Source of the DNA: a virus
Strand: one strand, 5' to 3'
IMG/VR virus record: IMGVR_UViG_3300008448_000259
Span: 1 to 37,862 of that record
DNA length: 37,862 nucleotides
Positions within the stretch are counted from its first letter, which is position 1, and every line of letters starts with the position of its first letter. Under the pieces are notes generated by a model. The model was not told the origin of the DNA. It was given only the letters and a program-made list of their open reading frames with translations, and did not search any database. Positions 1 to 4,439 of the stretch are shown here, one piece after another. The position numbers and the translations under genes are program-made.

Positions 1-202
1 CCGCCGCTGATCAGGAGGCTGTCCGGGGGGCTGACGGCGGGGGGAGGGGGGTGGGAGGGGGGGTCTGGGCGTGGGTATTGCCGGCAAAGTCCCGGGGAAA
101 GCCGGGGTTTTGCGGGGGTTTGTCTACTGCGGAGGGGGAGGGAGTTCCTGTCTTGGGGGTTGTTCCCCTGAGAGAGGGACGGATCTAAATAGGAGACAGC
201 AC
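1..202 (+). other. G-rich left edge and leader of the first gene
   Basis: No convincing gene lies here. Positions 25-69 are almost pure G in several runs (25-30, 39-44, 46-51, 53-55, 57-63, 67-69), which fits a G-quadruplex-forming tract on the + strand. This contrasts with the C-rich + strand of the next 9 kb. Further down, a short hairpin (155-168, GGGG/CCCC around a GTTGTT-type loop) is followed by AAATAGGAGACAGCAC and the first start codon at 203. I see no clear -35/-10 pair. A GTG at 71 opens the same frame as the first gene, but the leader hairpin and the ribosome site argue against its use. Confidence 0.5.
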
Positions 203-427
203 ATGAAGAAGTCCAGCAACAGCACGGTTACCCTGACGCTCAAGCCCGTCAAGCCGGGGACCGTCACGCCCAAGGGCCACCACGTGGCCTATGCGGCGGT
301 TCTCCCGGAAGGGATCGTCGGCGTCGTGCAGGGCGGAGCATCCGCCCGCGAGGTGCTTCTGATCGCGAGTTGGGCGCCGAAGGCGAAGAAGCTCGATCTC
401 AGCGAGATCTTCGACAGCCTCCGCTGA
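203..427 (+). CDS. Small hypothetical early protein (74 aa)
   Basis: I do not recognise this protein. It is basic, with an MKKSSNS start, a Thr/Lys/Pro-rich first third, a hydrophobic middle (AAVLPEGIVGVVQGG) and a C-terminus ending in a short acidic helix (LDLSEIFDSLR). The ATG at 203 is chosen because AGGAG lies at 191-195, seven bases upstream, within the GGAGACA leader shared by neighbouring genes. It is the first of four single-gene cassettes, each with its own leader hairpin and terminator-like hairpin. Small phage proteins in this position often modify the host, but nothing in the sequence shows a specific role. Confidence 0.7.
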   Translation: MKKSSNSTVTLTLKPVKPGTVTPKGHHVAYAAVLPEGIVGVVQGGASAREVLLIASWAPKAKKLDLSEIFDSLR

Positions 428-445
428 TGACGATGACCCCCATCA

Positions 446-480
446 CCCAGCAGGTACTACGGTACCTGCTGGGTTTTTTT
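446..480 (+). terminator. Strong intrinsic terminator with TACG tetraloop
   Basis: A perfect 12-bp stem (446-457 with 462-473) closes on the four-base loop TACG, a UNCG-type loop known for high stability, and is followed at once by seven T residues (474-480). It lies 18 bases after the first gene's stop. This is the most canonical terminator in the window. Confidence 0.92.
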
Positions 481-497
481 ATGTCCCGGTGTGGTGC

Positions 498-514
498 CGG
501 GGGGTGTTCCCCCG
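498..514 (+). promoter_or_regulatory. Leader hairpin of the second early gene
   Basis: CGGGGG (498-503) can pair with CCCCCG (509-514) around a five-base loop. It lies 40 bases before the next start codon. The first gene has a similar GGGG/CCCC hairpin at 155-168. It may protect or process the 5' end of the transcript; that role is inferred. Confidence 0.45.
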
Positions 515-553
515 TCAACCACCCACAATCCAACAATCAGGAGACAACAAACA

Positions 554-811
554 ATGGACAGCATGTGGACTCCCAAGTCCCCCTACAGCATGGCTCGGGA
601 GGAGGCCCATCGCCTCCTCCAGTCCTCCCTGCGAGACCGACCAAGGGGTCTCGCGGGATTGGAGTCGGATCTGCTCCTCATGGACCAGATGATCAAGGCG
701 GGAAACTTTCCCGCCAGCGTCGACCCGACCCAATGGCGGGCCGGACTCCAGTCTGTGAGGCAGTCGTGCCGCCTCGCGCTCCTCGAGGCGCAGTGGATGG
801 ACCTCCGATGA
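554..811 (+). CDS. Small hypothetical early protein (85 aa)
   Basis: I do not recognise this protein. It is predicted mostly helical, with a Ser/Met-rich start, a central amphipathic stretch (LAGLESDLLLMDQMIKAGNF) and a C-terminal helix ending in LLEAQWMDLR. Other in-frame ATGs lie upstream, but the one at 554 follows AGGAG (539-543) in the GGAGACAACAA leader also used by the next gene. The gene sits alone between a terminator at 446-480 and another at 823-860. Confidence 0.7.
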   Translation: MDSMWTPKSPYSMAREEAHRLLQSSLRDRPRGLAGLESDLLLMDQMIKAGNFPASVDPTQWRAGLQSVRQSCRLALLEAQWMDLR

Positions 812-822
812 GACCTTCCCCT

Positions 823-860
823 CCCTCCTCCGTCTAACCACGGAGGAGGGCTTTCTCTTT
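823..860 (+). terminator. Terminator-like hairpin with CTTTCTCTTT tail
   Basis: CCCTCCTCCG (823-832) pairs perfectly with CGGAGGAGGG (841-850) around an eight-base loop, followed by CTTTCTCTTT. The same tail follows the hairpins at 1238 and 1747. The tract is interrupted by C, so termination may be partial. Confidence 0.8.
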
Positions 861-865
861 GACCA

Positions 866-900
866 TTGGTTTCCTGTCCTTGCATGGAGCAGGCAACCAA
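866..900 (+). promoter_or_regulatory. Conserved leader hairpin, copy 1
   Basis: TTGGTT (866-871) pairs with AACCAA (895-900), CCTG (873-876) with CAGG (890-893), and TCC (877-879) with GGA (886-888), around loop TTGCAT. There is one T/C mismatch (872/894) and a single-base bulge (889). It starts only six bases after the previous terminator tail and ends 27 bases before the start codon at 928. A second copy lies at 1285-1320. A processing site (RNase III type) or an operator are both possible. Confidence 0.6.
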
Positions 901-927
901 ACCCAATCATCCATGCCGGAGACAACA

Positions 928-1221
928 ATGGAACGCAAGCCCGAATACGCCCTCGTCCACATCGTCTCGAACCCCGGCGATGCCACCAAGTTCGAGCCTT
1001 CACACCGTTCGGTCAACACCATCGGACTCTTCCGATGGTACACCGACGCCCAGACCGCCCTGCTGGGGTTCCTGACCAACGGAAACCCGGGATCGGTCTT
1101 CGCCATCCTCGACCTATCAAGCGGTCGCTTGGGGTCGGAGACCACCGTCCCCACCCCCACCGTCGACGAGCCGGAGCTCGACCCCTACGATGGGGTGCCC
1201 GCTGACACGGGCAGCATCTGA
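928..1221 (+). CDS. Small hypothetical early protein (97 aa)
   Basis: I do not recognise this protein. The N-terminal two thirds look like a compact alpha/beta fold (EYALVHIVSNPGDATKFEP... IGLFRWYTDAQTALLGFL). The C-terminus is acidic and Pro/Thr-rich (TPTVDEPELDPYDG). GGAG at 918-921 is six bases from the ATG. It is the third gene of the single-gene cassette series, with a leader hairpin at 866-900 and a terminator-like hairpin at 1238-1279. Confidence 0.72.
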   Translation: MERKPEYALVHIVSNPGDATKFEPSHRSVNTIGLFRWYTDAQTALLGFLTNGNPGSVFAILDLSSGRLGSETTVPTPTVDEPELDPYDGVPADTGSI

Positions 1222-1237
1222 GCCTTTCCCCCTGACG

Positions 1238-1279
1238 CCCCCTCCTCCCCACCGCCAGGGGAGGAGGGGGTTTCTCTTT
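1238..1279 (+). terminator. Terminator-like hairpin with TTTCTCTTT tail
   Basis: CCCCCTCCTCCCC (1238-1250) and GGGGAGGAGGGGG (1258-1270) form a perfect 13-bp stem around a seven-base loop, followed directly by TTTCTCTTT. Six bases after the tail the second conserved leader hairpin begins, leaving no room for a promoter between them. Confidence 0.82.
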
Positions 1280-1284
1280 CACCT

Positions 1285-1320
1285 TTGGTTGCCCGTCCTT
1301 GCATGGAGCGGGCCAACCAA
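1285..1320 (+). promoter_or_regulatory. Conserved leader hairpin, copy 2
   Basis: TTGGTTGCCCG (1285-1295) pairs with CGGGC (1309-1313) plus AACCAA (1315-1320), with one bulged C (1314). An inner TCC/GGA helix sits around loop TTGCAT. It is nearly identical to copy 1 at 866-900, including GTCCTTGCATGGAGC (876-890 and 1295-1309), but one stem pair differs on both sides: T875-A891 in copy 1 is C1294-G1310 here. The downstream CATCCATGCCGGAGACA is also shared (908-924 and 1328-1344). Confidence 0.62.
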
Positions 1321-1347
1321 TCCAACCCATCCATGCCGGAGACAGCC

Positions 1348-1731
1348 ATGCACAGCAGCGAAACCATCACCGCCCTCTTCGCCCGACTCTCCGGCGAGCG
1401 TAACGCCGGCATCGACGCCATCCACACCCACGGCGATCGCTCCTACTCCGCCATGGAGTGGGACTTCAACCACGCCCCCCGCTCCACCAACTGGAAGATG
1501 CTCGAGATGATCGGCATCGACCCGGCCACCGCCACCCTGCCGGAAATCCTCTCCGGCCTCTCGGTCTGGAACATCAACGTCGTCATCGAGCCGGGCTGCG
1601 AGGACTCCTACGTCCTCGACACCCTCCGCACCAAGATCTTGGTCGAGGAGATCACCATGATCGCCCCCACCCCCGACCTGCAGGAGTTCCTCCACATCAA
1701 CAACCCGGCGACCGTCGCCCGCCTCGCCTGA
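1348..1731 (+). CDS. Hypothetical early protein (127 aa)
   Basis: I do not recognise this protein. It is acidic and mixed alpha/beta, with an N-terminal helix (ETITALFARLSGERNAGID), a Trp-rich segment (AMEWDFNHAPRSTNWKMLEMI) and a C-terminal half rich in Ile/Glu (KILVEEITMIAPTPDLQEFL). GGAG (1338-1341) precedes the ATG at 1348. It is the fourth and last single-gene cassette. The next gene, 1799, starts a run of overlapping genes. Confidence 0.72.
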   Translation: MHSSETITALFARLSGERNAGIDAIHTHGDRSYSAMEWDFNHAPRSTNWKMLEMIGIDPATATLPEILSGLSVWNINVVIEPGCEDSYVLDTLRTKILVEEITMIAPTPDLQEFLHINNPATVARLA

Positions 1732-1746
1732 ACCCCGTTGTCTCCG

Positions 1747-1788
1747 GCCCCCTGCATCGTGCGGTTCGATGCAGGGGGCTTTCTCTTT
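1747..1788 (+). terminator. Terminator-like hairpin with TTTCTCTTT tail
   Basis: GCCCCCTGCATCG (1747-1759) pairs perfectly with CGATGCAGGGGGC (1767-1779) around a seven-base loop, followed by TTTCTCTTT (1780-1788). GGAG of the next ribosome site begins right after, so this element separates two genes by 67 bases in total. Confidence 0.85.
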
Positions 1789-1798
1789 GGAGCCCACC

Positions 1799-2050
1799 AT
1801 GATCAAAGAACTCTTCACCTTCCGACCACACCCCACCGACATCGACCTCGTGCGGGTCTCCACCAAGTGCTGCGACTGCCGCACCACCGTGCAGTTCGAC
1901 ATCCACGAAGCCGAATGGTTCGCCGGCCTCATGGCCCTTCAGGAAGGCCAGCTCATGCAGCGGGCCTTCCCCAACCTCAAGCCCGAGTGGCGGGAGCTTC
2001 TCATCTCCCGCCTCTGCCCCTCCTGCTTCGACTCCATCACCCATGACTAG
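1799..2050 (+). CDS. Small putative zinc-binding protein (83 aa)
   Basis: Two cysteine clusters suggest one zinc site: CCDC near residues 28-31 and CPSC near residues 74-77. Between them lies a helical stretch (EAEWFAGLMALQEGQLMQRAFP). Small zinc-ribbon proteins are common among phage early genes and bind nucleic acid or host proteins; the specific role here is unknown. GGAG at 1789-1792 supports the ATG at 1799. The end overlaps the next gene by eight bases, which suggests translational coupling. Confidence 0.72.
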   Translation: MIKELFTFRPHPTDIDLVRVSTKCCDCRTTVQFDIHEAEWFAGLMALQEGQLMQRAFPNLKPEWRELLISRLCPSCFDSITHD

Positions 2051-2333
2051 ACGATCCCCCTACATCATCGGCTACTGCTTCAACTCCGCTCTCGTCTGCC
2101 CTGCCTGCACCGCCGCAGCCCTCGAAGACGGAGAGATCATCCACCTCTTGACGGACGGCGAGGGCAAACCCCTCACCAATGCCGTCACCCCGTTCAACTT
2201 CCACGGAACCCACCCCTTCACAATCCCCGAAGCCATCTTCACCACCAACCTTGAGCCCGTCACCCCCGTCTTCAACACCGACGACTACCCCGACGGCTAC
2301 ACCTGCGACACCTGCGGCGAGGTTCACCCATGA
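2043..2333 (+). CDS. Small putative zinc-binding protein (96 aa)
   Basis: CPAC near residue 19 and CDTCGEVH at the C-terminus form a possible split zinc ribbon, like the preceding gene but without clear sequence similarity outside the cysteines. The middle is Pro/Thr-rich and probably beta (TPFNFHGTHPFTIPEAIFTTN). The ATG lies inside the previous gene, and its stop overlaps the next start as ATGA. This gives a three-gene coupled run, 1799 to 2554. I cannot assign a function. Confidence 0.72.
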   Translation: MTRRSPYIIGYCFNSALVCPACTAAALEDGEIIHLLTDGEGKPLTNAVTPFNFHGTHPFTIPEAIFTTNLEPVTPVFNTDDYPDGYTCDTCGEVHP

Positions 2334-2554
2334 CCAACCCTCTGCCACTCGGACCAACCACCACCTACCGCGTCTCCTGCATCTCCACCCTCCTCTACCG
2401 CACCGAGTTCACGGTCGCGGCCACGTCCCCGCAGCAGGCCATCGACTTCTGCATCCAGCGCCTCGATGCCAACGGCAACTACCTCGAGTCCGACTCCGAG
2501 AAGTTCCTCGAGACCGAGGACGAAACCGGATGGGAGGCCGAGCCCCTCGACTAA
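2330..2554 (+). CDS. Small hypothetical protein (74 aa)
   Basis: A beta-strand pair (TTYRVSCISTLLYRTEFTVAA) is followed by a helix (SPQQAIDFCIQRLDANGNYLES) and a strongly acidic tail. This arrangement is seen in many short phage proteins of unknown function. The start overlaps the previous stop by ATGA. The gene ends at 2554, just before a candidate promoter at 2559-2586. Confidence 0.7.
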   Translation: MTNPLPLGPTTTYRVSCISTLLYRTEFTVAATSPQQAIDFCIQRLDANGNYLESDSEKFLETEDETGWEAEPLD

Positions 2555-2558
2555 CCCC

Positions 2559-2586
2559 TTCACAACCAACCCAACCTGTGTACAAT
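2559..2586 (+). promoter_or_regulatory. Candidate sigma70-type promoter
   Basis: TTCACA (2559-2564), a 16-base spacer and TACAAT (2581-2586) lie in a short AT-richer gap between genes. Each box is one base from consensus. The predicted start point near 2593 would leave almost no leader for the GTG at 2595, so it may serve the gene at 2837 or make a leaderless message. Confidence 0.42.
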
Positions 2587-2594
2587 GGAGGACC

Positions 2595-2840
2595 GTGACA
2601 CCGCAAACCAACGACCTGATCATCTTCAACCCATGGCAAACCTTGCTACTCGATCATCCCGATGTCGACGTAGCCCAGTTCTATCTGACGCTCGTCACGA
2701 GCACCACTAACAATCACTTCACGTTCGAGGTCCTCGACAGCGGCGCGTGTGCCCTTGTCGAAGCCCTCGCCATCTCCGGCTGCACGAAGGGGCAGCGGGT
2801 CTGGTTCGCAAAGTCACCCTTCGGAGACTCCACTCAATGA
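2595..2840 (+). CDS. Small hypothetical protein (81 aa), GTG start
   Basis: I do not recognise this protein. It begins TPQTNDLIIFNPWQTLLLDHP and continues with a beta-rich part (FYLTLVTSTTNNHFTFEVLDSG) and ALVEALAISGCTKGQRVWFAKS. No in-frame ATG exists near the start. The GTG at 2595 has GGAGG (2587-2591) only three bases upstream, closer than usual. The stop overlaps the next start as ATGA. The unusual start spacing and the overlapping candidate promoter make this start the least certain in the early region. Confidence 0.55.
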   Translation: MTPQTNDLIIFNPWQTLLLDHPDVDVAQFYLTLVTSTTNNHFTFEVLDSGACALVEALAISGCTKGQRVWFAKSPFGDSTQ

Positions 2841-3664
2841 GCAATCTCATGCTCCATGCCGGCGGCTACTCCGCCTCCCTGTCCGACATCACCAACGTCG
2901 AGACGCCCCGCCCCACCGCCACGCACCAACCCATCCCGCACCGTCTGTTCCTCGAGAACTTGCTCGAAGCCCTGGCCTACCACGGCTACACCGTGACCCG
3001 CCAGCAGCACGGGCTCATGGGCAAGGCCGGCGAAGACTACTTCGGCGTCCTCGACCTCTCCCGCACTGGTCCCAACGGGGACTTCTGCCATGTCCTCGGT
3101 CTTCGCAACAGCCACCGCATGCGCTTCTCCGCACAGGCTGCGCTCGGTAGCCGCGTCTTCGTGTGCGACAACCTCGCCTTCCGTGCGGACAACGCCGTCG
3201 TCAAGTTCAGCCGCAAGCACACCGCCTTCATCCTGCGCGATTTCCCTCGTCTCTGCATCGACAAGGTGGCCGAGCTCCCCGGCTACTTCGCCGACACCGA
3301 GCAGCAGATCGACCGCTGGAAGAACTGCCTGCTCGGCACCGACGCCATCGACGTGCGCCGCAACGCCGCCGACCTGTGCATGACCGCCCTCACCAAGGGC
3401 GCCACCAACGGTCGGCTCCTGCCCCGTGTCTGGCAGGAGTTCAACCGCGAGGACGGACCCGGCGGCCACTCCTGCCTCAAGGGCACCTCGCTCTGGTCCC
3501 TCTTCAACGCCTTCACCGAGGTCGAGAAGATCACCGACTCGCCCGCTGAATCTCAGCGTCGCACCGCCCGACTCTCGACCATCCTCGACGGCACCTGCCA
3601 TGCCCTCGACGTCGAGCCCCTCGACGCCGGCGACTTCGACTTCTACCCGGTCGACATGGTCTGA
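2837..3664 (+). CDS. DUF932-like phage/plasmid protein (275 aa)
   Basis: The central region (LLEALAYHGYTVTRQQHGLMGKAG... GLRNSHRMRFSAQAALGSRVFVCDNLAF... VKFSRKHT) has the order and spacing I associate with the DUF932 family, found in phages and plasmids and of unknown biochemical function. That family is usually about 250-400 residues, so this looks full length. The C-terminal part is helical (SLWSLFNAFTEVEKI). The ATG at 2837 overlaps the previous stop and follows GGAG (2823-2826) in a GGAGACT leader. One copy of CCCCCACTGG begins immediately after the stop codon. Confidence 0.78.
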   Translation: MSNLMLHAGGYSASLSDITNVETPRPTATHQPIPHRLFLENLLEALAYHGYTVTRQQHGLMGKAGEDYFGVLDLSRTGPNGDFCHVLGLRNSHRMRFSAQAALGSRVFVCDNLAFRADNAVVKFSRKHTAFILRDFPRLCIDKVAELPGYFADTEQQIDRWKNCLLGTDAIDVRRNAADLCMTALTKGATNGRLLPRVWQEFNREDGPGGHSCLKGTSLWSLFNAFTEVEKITDSPAESQRRTARLSTILDGTCHALDVEPLDAGDFDFYPVDMV

Positions 3665-3685
3665 CCCCCACTGGTTCCTTCCGCA

Positions 3686-3715
3686 CCCGGCGATGCGACC
3701 GCCGGGCTTTCTTTC
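3686..3715 (+). terminator. Terminator-like hairpin with CTTTCTTTC tail
   Basis: CCCGGCG (3686-3692) pairs with CGCCGGG (3700-3706) around a seven-base loop, followed by CTTTCTTTC. The 15-base core GGCGATGCGACCGCC (3689-3703) is repeated exactly in another intergenic hairpin at 5346-5360. Confidence 0.72.
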
Positions 3716-3734
3716 ACCCCCAACGGAGACACGC

Positions 3735-4439
3735 ATGAGACACACCTTCGAGTGGAGAGGACGCACCCGCAGCCTCTTCACGTGGACATCGGCCATGGCC
3801 TGCTGGTCATGGTCCCTGCCCGCCGGCAAGGCGTACGCCTGCCCCGCCGAGTACCAGGGACCCGGCACCATCTGCTCCTCCTGCTACGCGCAGCAGGGGA
3901 ACTACCTGTTCCGCAACGTGCTCGACTCGCAGATCGACCGCTTCGAGTTCTTCAAGTCAGAGCCCGAGCGCTGCGATTCCCTCATCGTCAACGCCATCAA
4001 CCGCTCCGACCTCCCGTACTTCCGGGTCCACGACAGCGGCGACTTCCACTCCATCGACTCCATCAACCGATGGACCGCGATCGTGCGCCGCTGTCCGTCC
4101 ACCCTCTTCTGGTTTCCCACTCGGACCTACCTCTTCCCCGCATGGCTTCCCGCCCTGCGCCGGCTCCACTCCCAGCTCAACGCATGCGTCCGTCCGTCTG
4201 CCCTCCGCTTCGGCGACGAACCGCCCGTGACCGACGGCCTCGGGCACGGCACCGTCTCGATGCACTCGTCCCTGCCCGGCATCCACGACTGCCCCAAGTC
4301 CGTGTCCGGCGGATCGTGCGAGACATACTCGTGCCGCACCTGCTGGCACGACACCACCTACGTGAACTACCGCCCGCACGGACACGCCATCACGCCCCGT
4401 GAGCGCAGCGTCCGCCTCACCATCGGAGCCACATCGTGA
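3735..4439 (+). CDS. Gp88-like protein (234 aa)
   Basis: The protein matches the layout of the phage Gp88 family, whose function is not established: a Cys pair and CYA motif (CSSCYAQQGNY, about residue 43), then HDSGDF (about residues 98-103), a Trp-containing helix and a Phe/Tyr strand (TLFWFPTRTY). A second cysteine group near the C-terminus (SCETYSCRTCWHD) could complete a metal site. GGAG (3725-3728) supports the ATG at 3735. An in-frame ATG at 3693 lies in the upstream hairpin loop and is less likely. The stop overlaps the next GTG start. Confidence 0.75.
   Translation: MRHTFEWRGRTRSLFTWTSAMACWSWSLPAGKAYACPAEYQGPGTICSSCYAQQGNYLFRNVLDSQIDRFEFFKSEPERCDSLIVNAINRSDLPYFRVHDSGDFHSIDSINRWTAIVRRCPSTLFWFPTRTYLFPAWLPALRRLHSQLNACVRPSALRFGDEPPVTDGLGHGTVSMHSSLPGIHDCPKSVSGGSCETYSCRTCWHDTTYVNYRPHGHAITPRERSVRLTIGATS

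Follow-up and report, generated by a model that had tools for sequence, protein, structure and literature searches.

A duplicated hairpin in an uncultured virus

Why should two consecutive small genes of an uncultured virus carry nearly the same hairpin in their leaders, and what could such a structure do? The question arises at the left end of an IMG/VR virus record (IMGVR_UViG_3300008448_000259; 37,862 bases), which we analysed at full length and call the window. It codes for a family A DNA polymerase, a Sak4-like annealing protein, a PD-(D/E)XK nuclease, a DUF932 protein and a Gp88 protein, and its left end holds small orphan genes in a row, several with terminator-like hairpins between them. 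A search of the phage collection gave no DNA match to the first 8 kb. The window is probably an incomplete genome, because several close relatives measure 50-54 kb. A second contig (L022 and L194; IMGVR_UViG_3300042691_042834, 44,481 bp) agrees with the window at 100% identity across the end of the DNA polymerase protein, and it carries a primase-like gene that was not seen in the window. The two genes and the terminator-like hairpins around them are as follows.

823-850, plus strand: terminator-like hairpin with the tail CTTTCTCTTT, which ends the previous transcription unit (from a scan)
928-1221, plus strand: small gene g3, 97 aa, no family; its C-terminal DPYDGVPADTGS is common to relatives
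1237-1271, plus strand: terminator-like hairpin with the tail TTTCTCTTT (from a scan)
1348-1731, plus strand: small gene g4, 127 aa
1746-1780, plus strand: terminator-like hairpin after g4 (from a scan), with TTGTCTCCGGC (1738-1748) before it, which is complementary to the Shine-Dalgarno (SD) element

Neither g3 nor g4 matched a Pfam family, and g4 had no PHROG match at E<=0.001. The AlphaFold2 model of g4 is a confident fold (pLDDT 91); it has no PDB match at E<=0.001 and one viral look-alike (A0A6J5S1Z0), and so no informative fold match. Single-sequence searches with g3 and g4 returned no relatives, nor did an over-strict search with an exact DNA pattern; the relatives used below were obtained solely via the DNA polymerase, DUF932 protein and primase queries. 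We infer from their position that the leader-bearing genes are early.

The first hairpin (866-900) reads TTGGTTTCCTG TCC TTGCAT GGA G CAGGCAACCAA and the second (1285-1320) reads TTGGTTGCCCG TCC TTGCAT GGA G CGGGCCAACCAA. Folded alone they reach about -16 and -21 kcal/mol, respectively. Over 59 nt (848-906 against 1267-1325) the leaders share 83% identity, and each lies 10-15 nt 3' of a terminator-like hairpin (823-850 and 1237-1271). An unpaired T.C at position 872 of copy 1 corresponds to a G-C pair and a bulged C in copy 2. The initial annotation had described this duplication and a compensatory difference in the stem, T875-A891 in copy 1 against C1294-G1310 in copy 2, and both its coordinates and its folds proved correct. 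It had also called the loop TTGCAT unchanged, which holds for the two window copies but not across the clade, where GCATGG, GCAGGG, GCACGG, GCAGG and GCCGG are found. Two copies in a single genome with one double change are weak evidence by themselves.

A pseudoknot that ends at the ribosome-binding site

In both copies the loop holds GCATGGA (882-888; 1301-1307), the perfect complement of a downstream TCCATGC (910-916; 1330-1336), and a single base separates the latter from the SD element GGAGACA. The hairpin that was first noticed is half of a larger fold: together with the helix between its loop and the SD-proximal strand it is an H-type pseudoknot that ends at the ribosome-binding site. 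Its parts, with the hairpin stem as S1, the second helix as S2 and the connecting loop as L3, are listed here.

866-876, plus strand: 5' arm of S1 in leader 1 (fold, covariation)
882-888, plus strand: loop strand of S2 in leader 1, GCATGGA, complementary to 910-916; the equivalent pairing is found in 12 of 12 distinct leaders
890-900, plus strand: 3' arm of S1 in leader 1, with A891 (fold, covariation)
901-909, plus strand: A/C-rich connecting loop L3 of leader 1 (base composition)
910-916, plus strand: SD-proximal strand of S2 in leader 1, TCCATGC (complementarity, covariation)
918-924, plus strand: GGAGACA, SD-like start-associated element (motif distribution)
1285-1295, plus strand: 5' arm of S1 in leader 2, with C1294 (fold, covariation)
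1301-1307, plus strand: loop strand of S2 in leader 2, GCATGGA (fold, complementarity, covariation)
1309-1320, plus strand: 3' arm of S1 in leader 2, with G1310 and one bulged C (fold, covariation)
1330-1336, plus strand: SD-proximal strand of S2 in leader 2, TCCATGC (complementarity, covariation)
1338-1344, plus strand: GGAGACA, SD-like element (motif distribution)

For each window copy, an equal or better pseudoknot was found in 0 of 1000 dinucleotide shuffles of the 65 nt before the SD. In these two copies a plain hairpin lengthened by TCC/GGA has about the same stability as the knot, with which it competes for part of S2. The SD element itself has a biased distribution: GGAGACA occurs at 192, 540, 918, 1338 and 3725, before five of the first 10 genes and before none of the other 30 called genes.

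Conservation in related viruses

Reading upstream of the g3 and g4 homologues in eight relatives (L003, L007, L189, L011, L013, L014, L015 and L032) gave 11 further leaders, which brings the total to 13, from nine related contigs of uncultured viruses, the window among them. Twelve of these are distinct, as the knot of L189a has the same sequence as that of L007a. The pseudoknot leader precedes g4 homologues in all eight clade relatives in which the region is readable.

In every leader the hairpin makes up one half of an H-type pseudoknot, with a GCANGG loop that pairs with CCNTGC just 5' of a GGAGACA-like SD. The two strands change together. GCATGG with CCATGC is found twice in the window and in L013 and L032b, GCAGGG with CCCTGC in L007b and L189b, and GCACGG with CCGTGC in L007a, L003, L014 and L015, while L032a has a paired deletion (GCAGG with CCTGC) and L011 a second one (GCCGG with CCGGC). 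The sequence of S1 is almost wholly different between relatives and its pairing is retained; its positions are variable, most with at least three pair types. The initial annotation had argued for selection on the folded RNA, and had offered loss of pairing in relatives as a test. We ran this test: the related leaders conserve the pairing with different sequence, which strongly supports such selection.

MAFFT alignments of the leaders left S1 unaligned, because the loop lengths differ, and we therefore used a structural alignment made by hand. In this alignment 188 of 198 pair cells hold standard pairs, counted with bulges omitted; a few loop columns outside the pairs are approximate, which does not affect the pair columns. 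Position 4 of S2 is T-A in four leaders, C-G in five and G-C in two, thus paired in 11 of 11, in addition to the paired deletion in L032a. Since the remaining S2 pairs do not vary, S2 draws its independent support from one variable pair and two paired deletions. Among the g4-type leaders alone, at least two double changes appear to have occurred at position 4, and each paired deletion would add one more event.

Covariation was scored against an R-scape-like null, in which the inferred substitutions are redistributed along the tree. Of 1,326 column pairs, the eight that score highest all come from S1 or S2. Six pairs of S1 reach E<0.05 when every column pair is counted, in an alignment that for S1 is structure-guided and leans towards the structure, and that holds twelve sequences, which are few. 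The S2 columns leave little such freedom, and position 4 of S2 has E=0.2 over all 1,326 pairs and E=0.0026 among the 17 pairs tested.

The dimensions of the knot are compatible with H-type geometry: S1 has 8-11 bp, L1 0-5 nt, S2 5-7 bp, L2 0-3 nt and L3 9-15 nt. The composition of L3 over 12 leaders is 62 A, 58 C, 12 T and 1 G. S2 ends 11-14 nt before the ATG in all leaders checked. Between S2 and the SD-like element there are 0-3 nt; L003 is the exception, with its GAGACA element farther away and AGGA directly 3' of S2. When the 65-nt upstream regions were shuffled leader by leader, preserving dinucleotides, the observed quality was reached in 0-1 of 1000 shuffles for 11 of the 13 leaders. 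L011 is weaker in this test (17 of 1000), and a 1x3 internal loop kept the automatic knot finder from recognising L032b.

Comparison of the leaders shows both predicted stems, their topology, a near-fixed distance to the ATG and a placement 3' of a terminator-like hairpin. We are highly confident that the pseudoknot is a real RNA structure.

The initial annotation had allowed for an inverted-repeat operator instead, which the comparison disfavours. Inverted repeats near gene starts are common phage operators, and the GCANGG and CCNTGC half-sites are conserved, as they might be if the dyads were bound by a repressor as DNA. However, the S1 dyads stay symmetric with unrelated sequence, the gap between the S2 halves varies from 22 to 25 nt, and no promoter match is found at the leaders. 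That the dyads are DNA operators and not RNA structures is thus highly improbable.

Distribution of the pseudoknot

How widespread is this structure? All of IMG/VR was scanned with the pattern GCANGG, 22-25 nt, CCNTGC, 1-3 nt, GAGAC, with N free on both sides. This gave 23 matches in 21 stretches. All seven matches from the clade have a complementary N and an enclosing hairpin; among the 16 from elsewhere two have a complementary N and none has an S1-type hairpin. The covariance models of Rfam 15 gave no relevant match at E<=5 in positions 1-4000 of the window, nor at E<=1 in L007, L013 and L032. Generic pseudoknot descriptors, run on whole loci, did little or no better than on reversed-sequence controls (108 versus 88 and 56 versus 56 matches), so a knot of this general type is uninformative without the conserved S2 and its SD context.

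Distant homologues of g4 (L037-L042) have another leader, in which a terminator-like hairpin is followed by a CCTGNN..NNCAGG hairpin, a GCGGC..GCCGC hairpin and AGAAGGA. This may be a second type of structured leader. The knot is therefore a trait of the close clade, and we regard the leaders that carry it as a new family of SD-abutting H-type pseudoknot leaders.

Transcription and possible processing of the leaders

A terminator-like hairpin with a T-rich tail stands 5' of every leader read in the relatives. Of ten contigs scanned, nine have a single copy of a conserved sigma70-like promoter pattern. This pattern, built on the conserved g8 promoter, lies in each case 5' of a downstream gene, g8, and never at the leaders. 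With terminator-like hairpins upstream and no promoter match of their own, the leaders are probably reached by read-through or made by processing.

Two further observations concern these regions. The g8 promoter of the window (2559-2586) consists of TTYACN, a 16-nt spacer and a TACAAT-like box; its -10 box directly adjoins the g8 ribosome-binding site, so that the g8 mRNA may be nearly leaderless. In addition, a conserved GCATCTTTTCCCC lies between the stop codon and the terminator, 5' of pseudoknot leaders, in L007 (2764-2780), L003 (3417-3430) and L032 (near 4829).

This arrangement raises the possibility that the knot is an element for 5'-end stability or processing. The long transcript would be cleaved, or extended by read-through, in the stretch that separates the terminator-like hairpin from the knot. 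The knot would protect the new 5' end, and the products would be discrete small mRNAs, each with a knot at its 5' end and a hairpin at its 3' end. The terminator-like hairpin just 5' of every leader and the restriction of the g8-type promoter pattern to g8 both fit this. However, the strictest constraints are on S2 and on the distance to the ATG, which end protection does not need. We consider this explanation unlikely, although it is a serious rival.

The initial annotation had pointed to RNase III sites in the early leaders of other phages. T7 early mRNA shares hairpins between small phage genes with this locus, but its RNase III sites are long duplexes, not knots, and no T7-type long duplex was seen at the leaders. 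With 8-11 bp, S1 is short for an RNase III substrate, and S1 and S2 would give 13-18 bp if stacked; the structure is a pseudoknot, not a long duplex, and its best-conserved part adjoins the SD. Processing by RNase III is thus not specifically supported.

The genes downstream of the element are not all homologous: they are g3-like, g4-like or, in L007, a 63-codon gene unrelated to g4 that has a leader of its own. The same leader is also kept in L189, although the gene upstream of it differs. For these reasons we regard the element as a cassette.

Probable control of translation initiation

It seems fairly probable to us, judging from the sequence comparison, that the leader is a cis-acting RNA pseudoknot that controls translation initiation of the small phage gene downstream. 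We argue for control at this step because the knot abuts the SD and lies at a fixed distance from the ATG. In the proposed mechanism, a cis-acting RNA pseudoknot of about 50 nt would be joined to the ribosome-binding site. S1, free in sequence, would present GCANGG in its loop, and this would pair with CCNTGC to form S2, directly 5' of the SD, with an almost G-free A/C-rich strand linking the two stems. Folded at the edge of the 30S landing site, the knot would control initiation. Most likely it would be a translational operator, in which folding limits the access of the ribosome and a phage or host factor stabilises or opens the knot. A single signal would then govern several unrelated small genes.

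More tentatively, the leaders may represent a new family of phage RNA operators, in which a phage or host trans factor recognises the GCANGG/CCNTGC stem and the A/C-rich strand and switches unrelated small genes as one regulon. We put this forward as a possibility, and with considerable doubt. An operator of this kind could lead to its regulator and to what orphan phage genes do, and other repeated start-associated elements in phages, such as the ESAS described below, would merit a search for pairing between loop and SD.

A knot next to the SD could also act in the opposite direction. It may promote translation by drawing in the 30S subunit or protein S1, the role suggested for the standby pseudoknot of tisB from E. 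coli, another 5'-leader pseudoknot that affects initiation. The tisB mRNA requires its 5' pseudoknot for 30S and S1 binding (PMC7708055), and the unpaired, A/C-rich L3 beside the SD could bind S1. However, the geometry differs: in this toxin mRNA the knot acts at a standby site about 100 nt upstream of a sequestered ribosome-binding site (PMC7708055), whereas here the knot adjoins the SD, which is itself unpaired. Recruitment is quite unlikely here, yet still a serious rival to a translational operator.

A riboswitch for a small molecule, of an undescribed class, is very unlikely. PreQ1-I riboswitches typically have an H-type knot adjacent to the SD, and some of them occlude the SD indirectly (PMC11625349); the sequence of S2 is strongly conserved, as might be expected of such an element. 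However, there is no Rfam match, the genes downstream are unrelated orphans and not metabolic, and S1 and the loops offer hardly any conserved sequence from which a binding pocket could be built. The preQ1-I knot resembles ours in standing just before the SD, or partly including it, and in its A-rich connecting strand. In contrast, the leaders have a longer S1, SD nucleotides that lie outside S2 and no metabolic gene context, and the preQ1-I consensus was not matched among the Rfam models in window positions 1-4000 or in L007, L013 and L032.

Two phage systems also invite comparison. The autogenous operator of gene 32 in T4 and RB69 is likewise a pseudoknot in a phage mRNA, located 5' of the ribosome-binding site. 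That knot is found some 40 nt or more upstream of the ATG, is accompanied by UUAAA repeats and has a single-stranded DNA-binding protein as its regulator (PMC535899). Here, by comparison, the knot ends at the SD and precedes unrelated small genes, with no Pfam family for g3 or g4 and no PHROG for g4. In Cluster K mycobacteriophages, a repeated SD-like motif with an upstream inverted repeat (SAS/ESAS) stands before many small unrelated genes (PMC3203893), much as in our clade. However, the ESAS inverted repeats are conserved in sequence, with no reported pairing between loop and SD, whereas the sequence of S1 is free; the Cluster K motif GGGATAGGAGCCC is absent from the window, where its best match has three mismatches. 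Gene 32, preQ1-I and SAS/ESAS each have a defining feature that we tested for and that the leaders lack.

The leaders thus provide a specific RNA element that is testable by mutation and has strong comparative support, in a phage clade without a close relative in the phage collection searched. It stands right at the site of translation initiation and recurs in front of small genes that are unrelated to one another.

Other pairings and repeats

Several further candidates were found. An element like TTTGTCTCCGGC lies between g4 and its terminator (window 1737-1748), is conserved in relatives and is complementary to the SD. In the window the SD could form a 12 bp duplex of -24.5 kcal/mol with this TGTCTCCG element. 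We do not claim this pairing, because in the relatives the partners from the same genome are usually not the best partners; nor was covariation found between the TTTGTCTCCGGC-like element and the SD in the relatives.

A knot-like pairing of GAAGGG with CCCTTC (window 2785-2828) lies 5' of the SD of the DUF932 gene g9, within the coding end of g8, and is conserved in relatives. It was rejected as a candidate, as the conserved protein motif KGQR..PFGD explains it equally well.

Finally, the repeat ACCCCCACTGG is dispersed through the window from position 3664 on, with 23 matches on both strands (at most one mismatch) where one is expected. The sequence CCCCCACTG is over-represented in all close relatives (L003, L007, L011, L013, L014, L015 and L032), with a last base, G or A, that is specific to each genome, and is absent in most distant ones. 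The dispersed ACCCCCACTGG copies lie mostly within genes, and a repeated protein-binding site is a possible explanation.
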